In this document: positions 20,925 through 30,895 of the stretch, one piece after another | Layout: the number at the start of each line of letters is the position of its first letter | Numbering within the stretch: the first letter of the stretch is position 1 | Assembly (NCBI GenBank): GCA_009928955.1 | Contig: SABN01000024.1 | Location: forward strand, 1-35,888 | Direction: 5' to 3' | Source: Opitutia bacterium | GTDB lineage: Bacteria > Verrucomicrobiota > Kiritimatiellia > CAIQIC01 > Lenti-01 | DNA: 35,888 nucleotides | Program-made: the position numbers and the translations under genes | Notes under the pieces: model-generated | The model's database searches: none | What the model was told of the DNA's origin: nothing | Seen by the model: only the letters and a program-made list of their open reading frames with translations

Positions 20925-22823
20925 GTGAACTCGTTCGATGTCATCGTCATCGGCGCCGGTCACGCCGGATGCGAGGCCGCGCTGGCTGCGGCCCGGATGG
21001 GCGTTCGCACGGCGCTGATCACGATGGATCCGCTTGCGGCGGCGCGGATGTCCTGCAACCCGTCCATCGGCGGCATCGCCAAATCGCATATGGTTTTCGA
21101 ACTCGATGCCTTGGGTGGCGAGATGGCGCTGAACACCGATTGCACCGGAATCCAGTTCCGCGTGCTGAATCGCCGCAAAGGCCCGGCCGTCCGCGCCAAC
21201 CGCGCCCAATGCGACAAGCCGGCCTATTCCGCCCGCATGCACGCCGTGCTGCAGGCTCAGAACAACCTGACGCTGATCGCCGATCAGATCGAAACCCTCC
21301 AAGTCCACAACGACCGGATTTCCGGCGTTTGGGGCCGAAAATCGGGCTTTTTGGAGGCCAAAGCCGTCATTTTGACCGCCGGAACCTTCCTGCGCGGCAA
21401 GATTTTCGTCGGAAAATCCGTCGTCAACGGCGGACGCCTGAACGAGCCATCCGAGGAGAAACTCAGCCTCCAACTCCAGAGCCTCGGCTTCCGGATGGAG
21501 CGCCTCAAGACCGGAACCCCGCCGCGGCTGCACAAGGACAGCATCGATTATGACCGAATGGCCGTCCAGCCCGGCGAGGACCCGCCGCCGTTCTTTGGCT
21601 GGCGCTGCCGGACCGCCAACGGATTGTTCCACGTGGAACAATCCCGCCCCCGGACCGGATCGGAAACCGGCGGACCCGCCGTTGTTCCACGTGGAACAAT
21701 CGATCTCCCCCCGTTCGCACCTTGGATTCCGGGATCCAACCAACTCCCGTGCTGGCTGACGCATACCAACGAAAAGACCCTCGAGATCATTTCGTCGCAT
21801 CTGGCCGATTCCGCGCTCTATGGCGGGTTGATCGCAGGAACCGGCGTCCGCTATTGTCCGTCCATCGAGGACAAGGTGGTCAAATTCCCGCTCCACGCCG
21901 ACCACCATGTGTTCGTCGAGCCGGAGGGCAGGGGGGTGCCAGAGATGTATCCCAACGGCACCTCCAACAGTTTGCCGGTCGAGACGCAACGGGAAATGAT
22001 CCATTCCATTCCCGGCCTCGAGCGGGCGGAGTTCCTGGCGCCAGGATATGCCATCGAGTATGACTTTTTCGATCCCACCCAATTGACCCACGCCTTGGAA
22101 ACCAAGAGGCTGGGGGGGCTGTATTTCGCGGGGCAGGTGAACGGCACCACGGGATACGAAGAAGCGGCTGCGCAAGGCCTGATGGCCGGCATCAATGCAT
22201 CCTTGCATTTGATTGGTAGAGAAAGCATTATATTGAAACGCCACGAGGCGTACATTGGTGTTATGATCGATGATCTGGTGACGAAAGGAACGAACGAGCC
22301 CTACCGGATGTTCACGTCGCGGGCGGAACACCGGTTGCTGCTGCGACAAGACAACGCCCTGTTCCGCTTGGCGGCGCACGCCGAAAGCCTGGGTATCGTT
22401 CCGGCGGAGCGGTTGCGCGAAGTGCGGTCGATGGAGCGCGCCATCGCCCAGGAAATCGACCGCTTGAACCGGACGCACCATGAAGGCACCTCTCTGGCCC
22501 AATGGCTGAAGCGTCCCGAGACGGATTATGCGACGTTGCCCGGGCGGAGGGACGACCAGCCGCCTGAAGTGGCGGAACAGGTGGAGGTGGAGCTCAAGTA
22601 CGAGGGCTACATCGCGCGCGAGTTCCGGCAGATCGAGAAATCGGACCAAGTCTCCCGCCAGCAGATCCCGGCCGGCTTCGACTATCAGGCCATCCGCGCC
22701 CTGCGCTATGAATCGCGCGAAAAGCTTTCCGCCATCCGGCCCCGCGATCTTGGCCAAGCCTCCCGCATCTCCGGCATCACGCCGGCCGATATTTCCATTC
22801 TGTCCGTCTGGCTCAAAAAATAG
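20925..22823 (+). CDS. mnmG: tRNA uridine-5-carboxymethylaminomethyl(34) synthesis enzyme MnmG (GidA), GTG start
   Basis: [40 protein letters not shown]-like [30 protein letters not shown]. Confidence 0.97.
21623..21642. promoter_or_regulatory. parS-like ParB-binding site 1 (ATTGTTCCACGTGGAACAAT)
   Basis: Perfect 20-bp palindrome; core TGTTCCACGTGGAACA (21625-21640) matches the bacterial chromosomal parS consensus. Confidence 0.85.
21682..21699. promoter_or_regulatory. parS-like ParB-binding site 2 (TTGTTCCACGTGGAACAA)
   Basis: Perfect 18-bp palindrome with the same 16-bp core (21683-21698), 58 bp centre-to-centre from site 1. Confidence 0.85.
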
Positions 22824-22882
22824 GGCGCGCGCCTGGATCGACTTTGAAAAGAAAGCACCCCGATGCTTGATCAAATGAAACC

Positions 22883-23005
22883 ATGCATAGTTAATTAACT
22901 ATGCGCAGGCTGGAAACATCATAATTGTCTTTTGCTTAATCTAATGAGAAGCAATTATTCAATCGAATCATTACTTTTACGACGCATAGTTAATTAACTA
23001 TGCAT
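22883..23005. repeat. Twin perfect palindromes (GCATAGTTAATTAACTATGC) in inverted orientation flanking an AT-rich segment
   Basis: Copies at 22885-22904 and 22984-23003; with flanks, 23-bp inverted copies at 22883-22905 and 22983-23005; line 22921-22980 is 25% G+C. Confidence 0.95.
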
Positions 23006-23038
23006 TGAATATTTTGCAGAAAATTCAAAAACAGATTT

Positions 23039-23755
23039 CTATTTTGTCAGGATTTGGATGGCGATTTGGGCGGCGGGACCGCCCGCATCCGCCCAACGGG
23101 AAGGAAATGCCGCGGAATGGGCCAGCCGGTTGTTGAGTTTGGCCATGTGAATGGCGGGCGGCAGATGGCGAGCGGCCCGTTCGGCGGCGGAACCCCATGC
23201 GGGATCGGCATTGGGGAGCCGCGCGCCAGCTTGCAGGGCCATGCCCGCCAGATAATGGGTGAATCGGGCCCCGGAATAGTCTTCTCCGAACCCGCCGTCT
23301 GGATTTTGTTGGCGGAGCAGATGGGCCATGCCGGAGCGGAGGACGAACGCCCGCGAACCATCGAGAATGGCGGGATCGGCATGGATCAGGGCGAGCAGCG
23401 CAAGCGCGGTCACGCCGGTGTCGTAGCGGGAGCGCAAGTTCTGTTCGTCGGCGGACCAGCCGCCATCGGCCCGCTGGGCGGACATGAGGATTTCCACGGG
23501 CGAGCGGGGGCGGGGCGCCGGCATGGAGGCCGGATGGATCCGCCACAGGCCCGCCACGCCGAACAGGATCGCGAAGGCGGCGGCCGCACGCCATGCGAAG
23601 ACCAACCTGGTGCTGCGCGGTTCAGGCCTCTGCCGCAGGCGCTCCATCGTGCGCGCGGAAAACCCGGGGGAGGGCTCCGGGGCCGGTTGCCCGCGCAGGC
23701 GAGCCCGCAGGTCGGCGAACCGGGGGTCCTGAAGGGGATCAGGGGCGTTTTTCAT
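23039..23755 (-). CDS. Membrane protein with short cytosolic N-terminus (anti-sigma-like position) and external prenyltransferase/squalene-cyclase repeat domain
   Basis: MKNAPDPLQDPRFADLRARLRG ... TM WRAAAAFAILFGVAGLWRI ... SAQRADGGWSADEQNLRSRYDTGVTALALLALI; 17-bp overlap with the sigma gene. Confidence 0.7.
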   Translation of the reverse strand: MKNAPDPLQDPRFADLRARLRGQPAPEPSPGFSARTMERLRQRPEPRSTRLVFAWRAAAAFAILFGVAGLWRIHPASMPAPRPRSPVEILMSAQRADGGWSADEQNLRSRYDTGVTALALLALIHADPAILDGSRAFVLRSGMAHLLRQQNPDGGFGEDYSGARFTHYLAGMALQAGARLPNADPAWGSAAERAARHLPPAIHMAKLNNRLAHSAAFPSRWADAGGPAAQIAIQILTK

Positions 23756-24290
23756 CGAACATCTCCTGCAGGGTGGACAAGGCGTTGAACACGCGCGATT
23801 TGACGGTGCCGACAGGGATGGAGAGGATCGCGGCGATCTCGTCGTAGGCCAACCCCTGATGGACGGCCAAGACGAGCACTTCGCGCAGCTTGGGAGAGAG
23901 GCGATCGAGCGCCGCCTGGATGTCGAGCCGCTTCCGGAGCTTGCCGATGCCGCCATCGGTGAAGACGGGCATTTCCTCGCGGTAGCGCTCGGCGAAGATC
24001 CGGAAGCGGATCTGCCGGCGCACGTGATCCAGCCACGCATGCCGGGCGAGCGTGTAGAGGAACGTCGTGAATTTCGCCGCGGGCCTGTATTTTTTCCGGT
24101 AGTTCCATAGGCGGATGAACGTCTCCTGGGCGAGATCTTCTCCAGCGGTGGAAGCGCCCATGCGGGCGAAAAAGTTCAGCACGGGTCGTTGATGGCGCGC
24201 CAGCAGGACGGCAAAGGCGTCTTCGCGTCCGTCGCGCACCTGCGCCATGAGAGCGAAGTCGTCGGGTTCGGACTGGACGGGATCGGGCAT
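23739..24290 (-). CDS. RNA polymerase sigma factor, ECF type (sigma-70 regions 2 and 4)
   Basis: GEDLAQETFIRLWNYRKKYRPAAKFTTFLYTLARHAWLDHVRR; LSPKLREVLVLAVHQGLAYDEIAAILSIPVGTVKSRVFNAL. Confidence 0.92.
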   Translation of the reverse strand: MPDPVQSEPDDFALMAQVRDGREDAFAVLLARHQRPVLNFFARMGASTAGEDLAQETFIRLWNYRKKYRPAAKFTTFLYTLARHAWLDHVRRQIRFRIFAERYREEMPVFTDGGIGKLRKRLDIQAALDRLSPKLREVLVLAVHQGLAYDEIAAILSIPVGTVKSRVFNALSTLQEMFDEKRP

Positions 24291-24434
24291 GAAAAGGCAT
24301 TCTTGGACCCAACGCGCAAAAAAAGAAAGTCTTTTGCGAACGGCGGCGCCCCTGGATATTCCGCGCGGAAAAAGGAATGAACCTTTTGCCGGGGAACGGC
24401 GCTTCCACGCAAAACAGGACGGGTTTTCGAAAGG

Positions 24435-25574
24435 ATGGACCTCATGAAGAAGTGGATGGTCGGAGGGGTGGCGGGATGGATGGCGGTCCATGCGGCGGTC
24501 GGCGCCGGCTGGCCGGTGGATCTGGAGGCCGAGGCGCGCGCGGCGATGGCGAAGGGCGCGGCCTGGCTCGCGGCGCAGCAGCAGGCGAACGGCCACTGGG
24601 CGCTGGTGGATTCTCCCGCGCTGACGGGGCTTTCGATGTGGGCGCTGCAGCAGACCGATCCGGCGGCCTACCGCCCGGCGATCGACCGCGCGCTGGTGTT
24701 CCTCCTGACGAGCGTGCAGGAAGACGGCTCGATCTGGCGCCAGCCGGCGGCGCAGCGGAAGGGCGGGGGGCTGGCGAACTACAATACGGCGGTCTGCATG
24801 TCGGCGTTGCACGCGCTGAACCGCCCCGAGCTGGTGCCGGTGGTGCAGAACGCGCGCACCTATCTCTCCAAGATGCAGTATCTCGATCCCAGCGCCTATC
24901 GCGGCGGCATGGGCTACGACGCGGATCAGGGGCGACCCTACGCGGACCTGTCGAATTCCTACATGGCCTACGAGGCGATGCGCCTGACGCAGGAGGTCGA
25001 GGATCTGCGCGCCGCCGGCGAACCCAAAGCCGATCTGGACTGGGCGGCCGCGCAGGAATTCCTTTCGCAGATCCAGAACCTCAAGGCCGTGAACACGAAT
25101 TATTGGATCAGCGAAAGCGTGGACGACCGCGGCGGATTCGCCTATACGCCTGGCGCAGGACCTTCGACCACCAACGCGGAGGGCAAAGTGGCGCTGCGTT
25201 CCTATGGCAGCATGACCTATGCGGGCCTGCTCTCGCTGATCTATGCGCAGGTGGATGCGCAGGACGTGCGCGTGCAGGCCGCCAAGGACTGGGCGGGCCG
25301 GCACTGGTCGCTCGAGGAAAATCCCGGCATGGGGCAGGAAGGCCTCTACTATTTCTTCAACGTCCTCGCGAAGACCCTCGCGGCGGCCGGCGACGAGACG
25401 TTGACGCTCCCCGATGGCCGCACCGTGGCTTGGCGCGAGGAGGTCGCGCGCAAGCTGATCGCGCTGCAGCAGCCGGAAGGCTTCTGGGTGAACGAAAACA
25501 ACCGCTGGTGGGAGGCCGATCCGACCCTGGTGACGGCCTACACGCTGCTGGCGCTCTCCGCCGCAATGCCCTAG
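24435..25574 (+). CDS. Secreted prenyltransferase/squalene-cyclase-fold repeat protein
   Basis: Signal peptide; KGAAWLAAQQQANGHWALVDSPALTGLSMWALQ ... SVQEDGSIWRQ ... YNTAVCMSALHAL ... LIALQQPEGFWVNENNRWWEADPTLVTAYTLLALS. Confidence 0.82.
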   Translation: MDLMKKWMVGGVAGWMAVHAAVGAGWPVDLEAEARAAMAKGAAWLAAQQQANGHWALVDSPALTGLSMWALQQTDPAAYRPAIDRALVFLLTSVQEDGSIWRQPAAQRKGGGLANYNTAVCMSALHALNRPELVPVVQNARTYLSKMQYLDPSAYRGGMGYDADQGRPYADLSNSYMAYEAMRLTQEVEDLRAAGEPKADLDWAAAQEFLSQIQNLKAVNTNYWISESVDDRGGFAYTPGAGPSTTNAEGKVALRSYGSMTYAGLLSLIYAQVDAQDVRVQAAKDWAGRHWSLEENPGMGQEGLYYFFNVLAKTLAAAGDETLTLPDGRTVAWREEVARKLIALQQPEGFWVNENNRWWEADPTLVTAYTLLALSAAMP

Positions 25575-25652: not shown

Positions 25653-25722
25653 CGGCGCGGAAATTTCTTCACTATCACTTATAATTATATGTGATAGTGA
25701 TTTCCGGGGCCTTGCCGCGCCG
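25653..25722. repeat. Nested inverted repeat between convergent genes (core TCACTATCAC-N12-GTGATAGTGA)
   Basis: Core arms 25669-25678 and 25691-25700 are perfect; outer arms CGGCGCGG (25653-25660) / CCGCGCCG (25715-25722). Confidence 0.85.
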
Positions 25723-27690: not shown

Positions 27691-27965
27691 GTTTTTGGCT
27701 GAATCCGGTTTCCAGTGGCTTGTTAACAGGTCGATTCTCAAGGGGTTAGGGACGCTTTTCAATCACAAAATTTCTTGTCAATAGGGGCGGGAAAGATTTT
27801 CTGATTTTTTTAAAAAATACACCATATGGATGGTTTAAAATGGATGGCCACAATATCGTGTGGCGCGGAATATATATTTCGGAAAGAGCAGAGAAGGTTC
27901 TTGCTCAAAATCGAGGTGGACCCTACAGTCGGCGCTGGTTTAGGGGCTGAGGACCGAGAAGTGGT

Positions 27966-27985
27966 TGTGAACAAGCTGTGGATAA
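27966..27985. promoter_or_regulatory. Two adjacent DnaA boxes upstream of dnaA (TGTGAACAA, TGTGGATAA)
   Basis: 27977-27985 is the exact complement of TTATCCACA; 27966-27974 is TTGTTCACA in complement; 11-bp pitch. Confidence 0.65.
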
Positions 27986-28116
27986 GTGGTCCGAAGGCCC
28001 GTCCTGCCGAGTCCAAAACGGGACGAGCCGAGGCTTGGCGGGACGCATAAATTTGGGTTGTGCAGGGTCCTCGTCCGTGAGAGACTGGCGGACCGAGGCA
28101 GGAAGAGGAATTTTCA

Positions 28117-29496
28117 GTGGAAACGAACAAGGCAAAACAGATTTGGACGAAGGCCTGCGAATTCCTCGCGTCCGCTGTTTCGGCGGATGTCTACAACCGC
28201 TGGATCGGCGTCATCGAAGCGATCGGGGATGAGATGCCCGGCCAGCTGACGTTGACGGTGCCCAACGGGTTCTACCAGGACTGGCTCGAAGAGCATTACC
28301 TGGGGATGATCCGGGAAGCGATCGATGCATCGGGGGCGGAGAATCTGGTCATCACCTTCATGGTGGACGGGGCGCGCCAGCCGCCGGAGGGGATGCCGGC
28401 GGCGAAACCGGGGGAAGAAAAGGAGAAGGCGCAGAAAGGCCGGGTCCTGAAGTCCTACAACGTGGGGGGGGCGCTCAATCCGCGGCACACGTTCGACAAC
28501 TTCGTGGTGGGGCCGTCGAACACGTTCGCGCACGCGGCGGCGCTGGCGGTGGTGGAGGCGCCGGGGCGCGCCTACAATCCGCTGTTCATCCACGGGGGCA
28601 CGGGGCTGGGCAAGACGCATCTGATCCAGGCGATGGGGCAGGCGGTGCTGAAGCGCGGGAAGGGGACGGTGTGCTACACCTCGTGCGAAGCCTTCACCAA
28701 CGAGTTCATCCAGGCGCTGCAGCAGCACGAGATCGCGACCTTCCGGAGGAAGTACCGCCACATCGACTTGTTGTTGATCGACGACATCCACTTCCTGGCG
28801 GGCAAGGAAAGCACGCAGGAGGAGTTTTTCCACACGTTCAACACCCTGTACGAAAACCAGAAGCAGATCGTGATGACGAGCGACCGGCCGGTGAGCGAGA
28901 TCGCCAACCTGCAGAAGCGCCTCGTTTCGCGGTTCGAGTGGGGTCTGGGGACGGAGATGGAGATGGCGGATCTCGAGACGCGGGTGGCGATCCTGCGGCG
29001 GAAGCGCGAGCAGCTGAGCATCCAGCTGCCTGACGACGCGCTCTTTTTCATCGCCGAGCACGTGCGCTCGAACATCCGCAAGCTGGAAGGGTCGCTGCTG
29101 CGGGCGGCGTCCTACGCCTCGCTGACGCGCAAGCCGCTGACGACGGAAGCGCTGGAATATCTGCTGCGGGACACGATCGAGCAGGAGAACCAGACCGCGC
29201 TGACGATCGAAGGGATCCAGCGGATGGTCGCGGAATACTACGACATCCGGCTGGGGGACATGACCAGCAAGCAGCGGCCGCAGAACATCGCGTTCCCGCG
29301 CCAAGTGGCGATGTATCTGTGCCGGGAGATGACCGACCAGTCGCTCCCGGCGATCGGGAACGGATTCGGGCGCAACCATGCGACGGTTCTGCATGCCCAC
29401 CGGAGCGTGGGCGGCAAGATGAAGAAGGACTCGGGCCTGCGCCAAACCATCCTGTCGCTTCAGCAGCGTCTCGGCGGAGTCTCCGCACCTTCCTGA
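28117..29496 (+). CDS. dnaA: Chromosomal replication initiator protein DnaA (GTG start)
   Basis: NPRHTFDNFVVGPSN; GGTGLGKTHLIQAMG; IDLLLIDDIHFLAGKESTQEEFFHTFN; C-terminal FGRNHATVLHA. Confidence 0.98.
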   Translation: METNKAKQIWTKACEFLASAVSADVYNRWIGVIEAIGDEMPGQLTLTVPNGFYQDWLEEHYLGMIREAIDASGAENLVITFMVDGARQPPEGMPAAKPGEEKEKAQKGRVLKSYNVGGALNPRHTFDNFVVGPSNTFAHAAALAVVEAPGRAYNPLFIHGGTGLGKTHLIQAMGQAVLKRGKGTVCYTSCEAFTNEFIQALQQHEIATFRRKYRHIDLLLIDDIHFLAGKESTQEEFFHTFNTLYENQKQIVMTSDRPVSEIANLQKRLVSRFEWGLGTEMEMADLETRVAILRRKREQLSIQLPDDALFFIAEHVRSNIRKLEGSLLRAASYASLTRKPLTTEALEYLLRDTIEQENQTALTIEGIQRMVAEYYDIRLGDMTSKQRPQNIAFPRQVAMYLCREMTDQSLPAIGNGFGRNHATVLHAHRSVGGKMKKDSGLRQTILSLQQRLGGVSAPS

Positions 29497-29800: not shown

Positions 29801-30895
29801 ATGAAAATCAAAGTGAACAAAGAGGCGATCATCGATTGCCTCCAAAAAGTCCAGTCGGTGATCAATCCCCGGAACGCCCTCCCCGTTCTTTCCAACGTGT
29901 TGTTCCGGGCGGAGAACGGGAAATTGGAGCTGACCGCGACGGACATGGCCTTGACCGTCCGGGCGACCTTGCCGGCCGAAGTCCTCGAAGCCGGTTCGAC
30001 GACGTTGCCCGCCAAGCGGATTTTCGGCGTGTTCCGGGAATTGAGCGTGGACGAGGCGGAAATGGCGGTCAACGACCAGAACATCGCGTTCATCCATTCC
30101 GGCAGCTCCGATTTCCGGATCCACGGGATTTCCGAGGCGGACTATCCGAGCCTTCCGGAGATGACCGATGCGAAGGCGTTTTCGTTCGACCAGGGGGCGT
30201 TCCGGAACATGCTGCGGCTGACCTCCTATGCCGCGTCGACCGATGCCAACCGGCCCCTGCTCAATGGCGTGCTGCTGAGCTTCAAGGGGGGCAAGCTGAG
30301 CGTGGTGGCGACGGACAGCCGCCGGCTCGCGCTGGTGGAGCATGAAGTCGAGTTTCCGGCGGACGCGGGGATGGACCTGATCGTGCCCCTCAAGACGGTC
30401 GACGAGCTCGTGCGGACCTTGGGCGATTCCGGCCTCCTGAAGATCCTGGCGACTCCGAAGCAGATCGCCTTCGAGTTCGACGGGGTGCTGATCATCTCCA
30501 AGCTGGTGGAGGGGACCTATCCGAACTTCCGGCAGGTGATTCCGCAGGCCAACGGCGACCGGGTGGCGATGGAGCGCGAAACGCTCCTGACGGCGGTCCG
30601 GCGCACCTCCCAGCTGGTGAGCGACGCGGTGTCGGGCGTGAAGCTGACCTTCACCAAGAACCGGCTGGAGATCTTGGCGCAGGCGGCGGAGATCGGCGAG
30701 GGGCGCGAGACGATGGATGTGAAGTACAACGGGCCGGACATCGGCATTTCGTTCAATCCCGCGTTTTTGATGGATCCGCTGAAGGCGCTGACGACGGACG
30801 AGGTGTTTTTGGATCTGATGGACGATACGAGCCCGGGCGTGATGCGTTCGACGATCAGCTTCGTGTATGTGCTGATGCCGATCCGGGTCACCTGA
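29801..30895 (+). CDS. dnaN: DNA polymerase III subunit beta (sliding clamp)
   Basis: MKIKVNKEAIIDCLQKVQSVINPRNALPVLSNVLF ... YVLMPIRV C-terminus. Confidence 0.97.
   Translation: MKIKVNKEAIIDCLQKVQSVINPRNALPVLSNVLFRAENGKLELTATDMALTVRATLPAEVLEAGSTTLPAKRIFGVFRELSVDEAEMAVNDQNIAFIHSGSSDFRIHGISEADYPSLPEMTDAKAFSFDQGAFRNMLRLTSYAASTDANRPLLNGVLLSFKGGKLSVVATDSRRLALVEHEVEFPADAGMDLIVPLKTVDELVRTLGDSGLLKILATPKQIAFEFDGVLIISKLVEGTYPNFRQVIPQANGDRVAMERETLLTAVRRTSQLVSDAVSGVKLTFTKNRLEILAQAAEIGEGRETMDVKYNGPDIGISFNPAFLMDPLKALTTDEVFLDLMDDTSPGVMRSTISFVYVLMPIRVT

Follow-up and report, generated by a model that had tools for sequence, protein, structure and literature searches.

Directly downstream of mnmG, the stretch of DNA analysed here (35,888 nt, referred to as the window) carries two identical palindromes, raising the question of what such a pair is and what recognizes it. 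The window is contig C320 of the source genome (G000; 3.42 Mb, 345 contigs); this and the other genomes used are drafts, and gene models came from a home-made codon model trained on hand-picked genes. Reading the sequence alone, the original prediction described two perfect 20-bp palindromes 99 bp apart around an AT-rich segment, and offered an origin unwinding or initiator locus, a nucleoid or partition site, or a miniature mobile element as candidates. The description of the locus held up well (Table 1). The two palindromes are perfect, and when flanks are included the copies form 23-bp inverted repeats of each other (22883-22905 and 22983-23005). They are housed in the 215-bp gap between the mnmG stop (22823, plus strand) and the stop of a minus strand gene (23039), confirming the placement between convergent genes. 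No chance match to the palindromes was obtained in 100 dinucleotide shuffles of the window, even with 3 mismatches allowed. The spacer is AT-rich as claimed; the claimed figure of about 25% G+C was too low, as 22905-22983 measured 33% as compared to 65% for the window.

Table 1. Features of the window around the palindrome pair.
Feature	Position	Strand	Remarks
parS TGTTCCACGTGGAACA	21625..21640	.	inside mnmG; conserved in G001 (C28:251617)
Second parS TGTTCCACGTGGAACA	21683..21698	.	inside mnmG, 58 bp from the first; conserved in G001 (C28:251675)
mnmG (gidA)	20925..22823	+	left convergent neighbour; NCBIfam TIGR00136, E 5e-226
Left palindrome GCATAGTTAATTAACTATGC	22885..22904	.	operator type T242; same as operator upstream of the C242 tandem-ArsR gene
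AT-rich spacer	22905..22983	.	between the putative operators; 33% G+C; spacing phased
Inner inverted repeat ATAATTG/CAATTAT	22921..22958	.	probably incidental
Right palindrome GCATAGTTAATTAACTATGC	22984..23003	.	identical to left copy, 99 bp away
Uncharacterised gene	23039..23755	-	right convergent neighbour; codon-statistics gene model
ECF-sigma-like gene	23739-24248	-	3' side overlapped by the 23039..23755 gene; sigma label by eye from sequence
Single T249 operator TCACTTATAATTATATGTGA	25675..25694	.	belongs to a different paralogue (that of contig C249); flanking genes convergent (25574 + / 25738 -)
dnaA	28117..29496	+	gene model; name by eye from sequence
dnaN	29801..30895	+	gene model; name by eye from sequence

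The inner inverted repeat (22921-22927 and 22952-22958) was present as predicted. A similar spacer was sought in the orthologous slots of congeners and none was found, so this repeat is probably incidental. RNA folding of 22824-23040 gave a low energy (z -4.2 and -3.1) because the palindrome copies are inverted relative to each other. Simple scans of 22700-23200 found no promoter or terminator. On the far side of the locus the ECF-sigma-like gene and its downstream partner adjoin a gene with prenyltransferase/squalene-cyclase-like repeats (window 23039-25574), and this synteny is kept in a related genome (G001).

The genome-wide palindrome search that had been proposed was carried out and returned 5 exact copies and 2 near ones; the control gave 0. 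The motif TTAATTAA occurred 19 times in the genome as compared to 3 for the reversed control. Copies of the palindrome (T242) were mostly paired, with spacings of 99 bp on C320, 99 bp on C242, 100 bp on C175, 87 bp on C229 and 86 bp on C120, and the same or slightly altered palindromes were present in congeners. Matches in named public genomes came from Kiritimatiellae, Verrucomicrobia and Lentisphaerae metagenome-assembled genomes, with scattered single matches elsewhere. Exact 18-mers in Haemophilus, Proteus, Lutibacter, Methanobrevibacter, a Bacillota metagenome-assembled genome and one viral contig were each single and were treated as chance matches in AT-rich DNA. A second TTAATTAA-centred family, ATTTCGGASTTAATTAASTCCGAAAT, corresponds to the operators of the C115 paralogue, whose gene lies beside alaS, and has dispersed singles on G000 contigs C88, C115, C174, C188 and C205 (L009, L010, L014, L017 and L019).

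One T242 pair with the same 99-bp spacing sits 20 bp upstream of a gene beside dnaK (C242:3315-3887) that encodes an uncharacterised 191-aa tandem ArsR-type protein beginning MAKLHPTLWRTCRMLSG. T242-type pairs also precede the dnaK-linked orthologues in G004 and G009, with a single palindrome in G016. No palindrome precedes the gene of the closest homologue (G003:C71, 69% identity), and G005 (66% complete) has the palindromes without a detected close orthologue. NF033788 matched above cut-off in two stretches per protein in 3 of 3 proteins, and PF01022 (HTH_5) also scored above cut-off. Two winged helices are seen in the AlphaFold model (pLDDT 92.5), their recognition helices spanning 46-58 and 143-155, and both domains are ArsR-like in sequence and fold. 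No solved structure covering both domains well was found (best TMq 0.39), and PADLOC matches were generic helix-turn-helix (HTH) matches. Nine members of the family were detected in the source genome and 1-10 in 12 of the 17 genomes of its GTDB family; in a phylum sample, 25 of 289 genomes had a match at E <= 1e-12, all in the same class.

Genes of this family were examined for upstream palindromes in G000, G001, G003, G004, G006, G009 and G016. A paralogue-specific palindrome of about 20 bp was located upstream of 41 of the 42 genes, usually two per gene. The palindromes of the paralogues have their own arms and one of a few centres, as can be seen by comparing GCATAGTTAATTAACTATGC for the C242 protein with TCACTTATAATTATAAGTGA for C249 and TCGGAATTAATTAACTCCGA for C115. 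When all alignment columns were scored against the operator centre, residues 47, 48 and 45 ranked at the top (z 16.8, 9.8 and 9.6). With the limit that the paralogues are related and so are not fully independent trials, P47-R48 went with an AATT centre (11/11), S47 or T47 with TATA (one TGCA exception with S47-Y48), Y48 or K45-R46 with TGCA, and E or Q at residue 46 with A at base 7 (8/8), other residues going with T (24/24). Residues 45-48 are where the first recognition helix begins. The resulting rule fitted most of 12 further genes outside the set from which it was made: the fit was exact for L105, L107, L109, L110, L116, L119, L121, L127 and L128, while L264 was one base off, L120 was ambiguous and L108 had a new residue, G47, with AATT. 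Similarity of the operator arms correlated weakly with any protein region (Spearman <= 0.29).

Spacings between paired palindromes clustered at 66, 77-79, 86-90, 97-100 and 120-121 bp. The best period was 11.15-11.2 bp with a phase near zero (about 0 at 11.0), with p <= 0.001 against a jitter null. R was 0.83 for 25 dispersed pairs, 0.80 with one value per slot and 0.60 for 25 own-promoter pairs; the own-promoter pairs in this test were those of at least 40 bp, as the short ones (17, 18, 26 and 27 bp) misfit and were left out. G001 spacings are nearly all 77-79 bp, so part of the phasing may come from shared ancestry. Two operators of one protein thus lie at whole helical turns, and this phase would place both palindromes on the same face of the DNA, as for bridging by a protein.

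We therefore read the twin palindromes, with a probability of about 0.72, as a helically phased operator pair for the C242 tandem ArsR-type protein, one of about nine paralogues. The cognate palindromes, the covariation of protein and operator, the phasing, the position preference and the slot conservation are established at the level of sequence; binding in trans by the C242 protein is a well-supported prediction. Two protein dimers, or a tetramer, would take one palindrome each and bridge both, and such bridging would force the AT-rich spacer to bend, closing a loop of about nine turns.

At the promoters of the family genes themselves, matches to a TTGACA-like hexamer show a peak at exactly 7 bp before the start-proximal palindrome, so that RNA polymerase and the protein should compete. 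With the start-proximal palindrome covering the -10 region, the complex would be expected to repress its own gene. This hexamer was absent at dispersed sites (mean of 1.59 of 6 matches as compared to 2.59). In an ordinary transcription-factor regulon the dispersed sites would control nearby genes or small RNAs, as the clearly operator-like own-promoter sites might lead one to expect. The 18 of 48 dispersed sites that are tandem or divergent, about one third, could be ordinary regulatory sites of this kind. As an account of the set this is nevertheless unlikely, as dispersed sites were enriched at convergent gene ends, no -35 hexamer adjoins dispersed palindromes, and the 22700-23200 region showed nothing promoter-like.

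For the T242, T249 and T28 types, about 6-12 additional sites or pairs were found per genome. Convergent placement was found for 30 of 48 dispersed sites (a count that includes orthologous slots, not all of them independent) as compared to 15 of 101 in the background set, the intergenic regions of >= 100 bp on contig C28 of G001 (Fisher P 8e-9). The window itself holds a second example: its single T249 operator extends to a 30-bp near-perfect palindrome, CACTATCACTTATAATTATATGTGATAGTG (25670-25699). Single palindromes are likewise common among the T249 sites of G000 and G006, so a loop is not always possible.

The palindromes lie close to stop codons (median distance 46 bp), mostly at convergent ends, as bidirectional RNA hairpins serving as terminators or mRNA stabilisers would. 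Canonical terminators are rare in this lineage whether a site is present or not, and T28 and T249 fold fairly well (-18.8 and -11.8 kcal/mol). However, the T242 palindrome of the window forms only a weak hairpin (-9.3) and lacks a U tract, and the copies within any one genome all have one sequence, which matches an HTH-gene operator. Helical phasing, as found for the pairs, would moreover be unnecessary for RNA hairpins. We consider this explanation quite improbable.

Orthologous slots were compared between species. Beside mnmG, the slot is occupied by T242 pairs in three genomes (G000, G004 and G005) and in G001 by a T28 pair, whose palindrome is that of a different G001 paralogue; in G002 and G009 the slot is without such a pair. 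The proteins to which T249 (G000 and G006) and T28 (G001) belong are syntenic orthologues; the two palindromes are entirely different, and yet they share slots (G000 C214, G006 C2 and G001 C10; G000 C338 and G001 C12; G006 C125 and G001 C28:272 kb). Other shared slots are C229 with G004 C63, and C120 with G004 C87 and G005 C186. That slot positions are kept while the palindromes change speaks for selection on the positions and against transient insertion. In two genera the mnmG slot is filled by an imperfect inverted repeat, TGTAATATATTG...CAATATATTACA (L078 in G002 and L080 in G015), and in G010 three TTCCA-N4-TGGAA-type repeats lie downstream of mnmG (L082).

The same comparison bears on the miniature mobile element that had been proposed. 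In a REP/REPIN-like or MITE-like element, inverted palindromes around a variable spacer would be spread by a transposase. The units do resemble REPINs in being inverted, extragenic pairs with a variable spacer of preferred length and several copies per genome (PMC3116915), 8 Y1/RAYT-like transposase matches were present in the genome, and one G001 pair (295 and 298 kb) arose by recent duplication. Against this, target-site duplications were found in 0 of 21 units, no T242 or T249 palindrome (<= 4 mismatches) occurred in the RAYT loci examined in the genome, and spacers had no homology in G000, G004 and G005. Homologous interiors were clear only for the G001 295/298 kb duplicate, the weak G001 similarity elsewhere being in part extended palindrome edges. 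The slots are common to species while the palindrome sequence differs, and the palindromes match HTH-gene operators and covary with the HTH protein. The mobile element proposal was thus not borne out, and we regard it as highly improbable.

The prediction that the locus lies near the replication origin was borne out. The minimum of the cumulative GC skew falls at about 22.1 kb of the window (in G001 at C28:252,928, beside that genome's own pair), mnmG contains the two parS sites, both canonical, and dnaA and dnaN follow 5-7 kb downstream, dnaA at about 5 kb. In G001 the origin contig C28 carries 8 of the 12 T28 sites or pairs (binomial P about 5e-6 for an even spread). Clustering of T242 at the origin of the source genome was not demonstrable, as the majority of the contigs with T242 sites failed to map to G001 C28. 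These observations are what an origin-unwinding or initiator locus would lead one to expect, but near-identical pairs occur at many other loci, the same unit serves elsewhere as a promoter operator, and the pair is missing from this slot in other species. No DnaA boxes were found near 22.9 kb, and a single TTATCCACA box lies at 27977 upstream of dnaA. The gap at 27700-28120 that contains this box is the more likely oriC, and an initiator role for the palindrome pair is extremely improbable. A nucleoid or partition site had also been suggested. Its protein-binding part comes close to the operator pair reading; identity with parS was rejected, as the palindrome differs from the TGTTYCACGTGRAACA type and the true parS sites are separate.

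What an operator pair for the C242 protein would do beside mnmG is more conjectural. At such convergent ends there is no promoter to repress, and the complex could act as an architectural element or a transcription roadblock parting two units. A roadblock, boundary or chromosome-organising role there is a guess. Near the origin, the complex might also add to local chromosome organisation. Tentatively, and with the balance of probability against it, the tandem-ArsR proteins with their many paralogues and fast-changing palindrome codes may be architectural proteins of a bacterial boundary or insulator system that marks the borders between convergent genes and keeps them apart through small phased loops, in which slots are kept while code and occupant change and some members mark the origin region.

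Together these data tie an orphan palindrome pair to a tandem-ArsR family for which literature searches found no published description of such a palindrome/protein system. They offer a readable protein-DNA code (residues 45-48 and the operator centre) and a natural record of how numerous binding sites altered in step with their protein but stayed in place. If the dispersed sites at convergent ends do function, they would constitute a dedicated bacterial boundary or roadblock system.

Proteins of the ArsR/SmtB family are single-domain homodimers, usually with metal or thiol sensor cysteines. As in ArsR/SmtB autorepressors, each domain here is ArsR-like and a palindromic AT-rich operator lies over the gene's own promoter. 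In contrast, there are two tandem domains per chain, the family alignment has no conserved cysteine pair, and about nine paralogues occur per genome, each one checked having dispersed sites away from promoters. As in the repression loops of Lac, Gal and AraC, two operators lie 7-9 turns apart at whole-turn spacing; Lac repressor loops of similar length have been studied (89-100 bp, PMC2682762; about 7 turns, PMC5081198). Unlike in those loops, most pairs here lie between convergent genes without a promoter-like hexamer, and an operator overlapping a promoter was found at the HTH genes' own promoters, not at dispersed sites including the window pair. REPINs or REP sequences with their RAYTs (PMC3116915) share the inverted doublet, the variable spacer, one palindrome type per cognate gene and co-evolution; they differ in that the cognate gene here encodes a winged-helix protein instead of a transposase, the slots persist from species to species, and no RAYT association was found. 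The parS/ParB system is similar in having palindromic sites bound in trans (putatively so here), a handful to a dozen per genome, and an origin cluster, seen here for one G001 paralogue. It differs in that true parS is separate, in mnmG, and that the tandem-ArsR proteins have no sequence relation to ParB, phased pairs of sites and multiple paralogues. The palindromes may also be likened to the sites of MatP/matS, Noc and SlmA, which are dispersed nucleoid-site systems.
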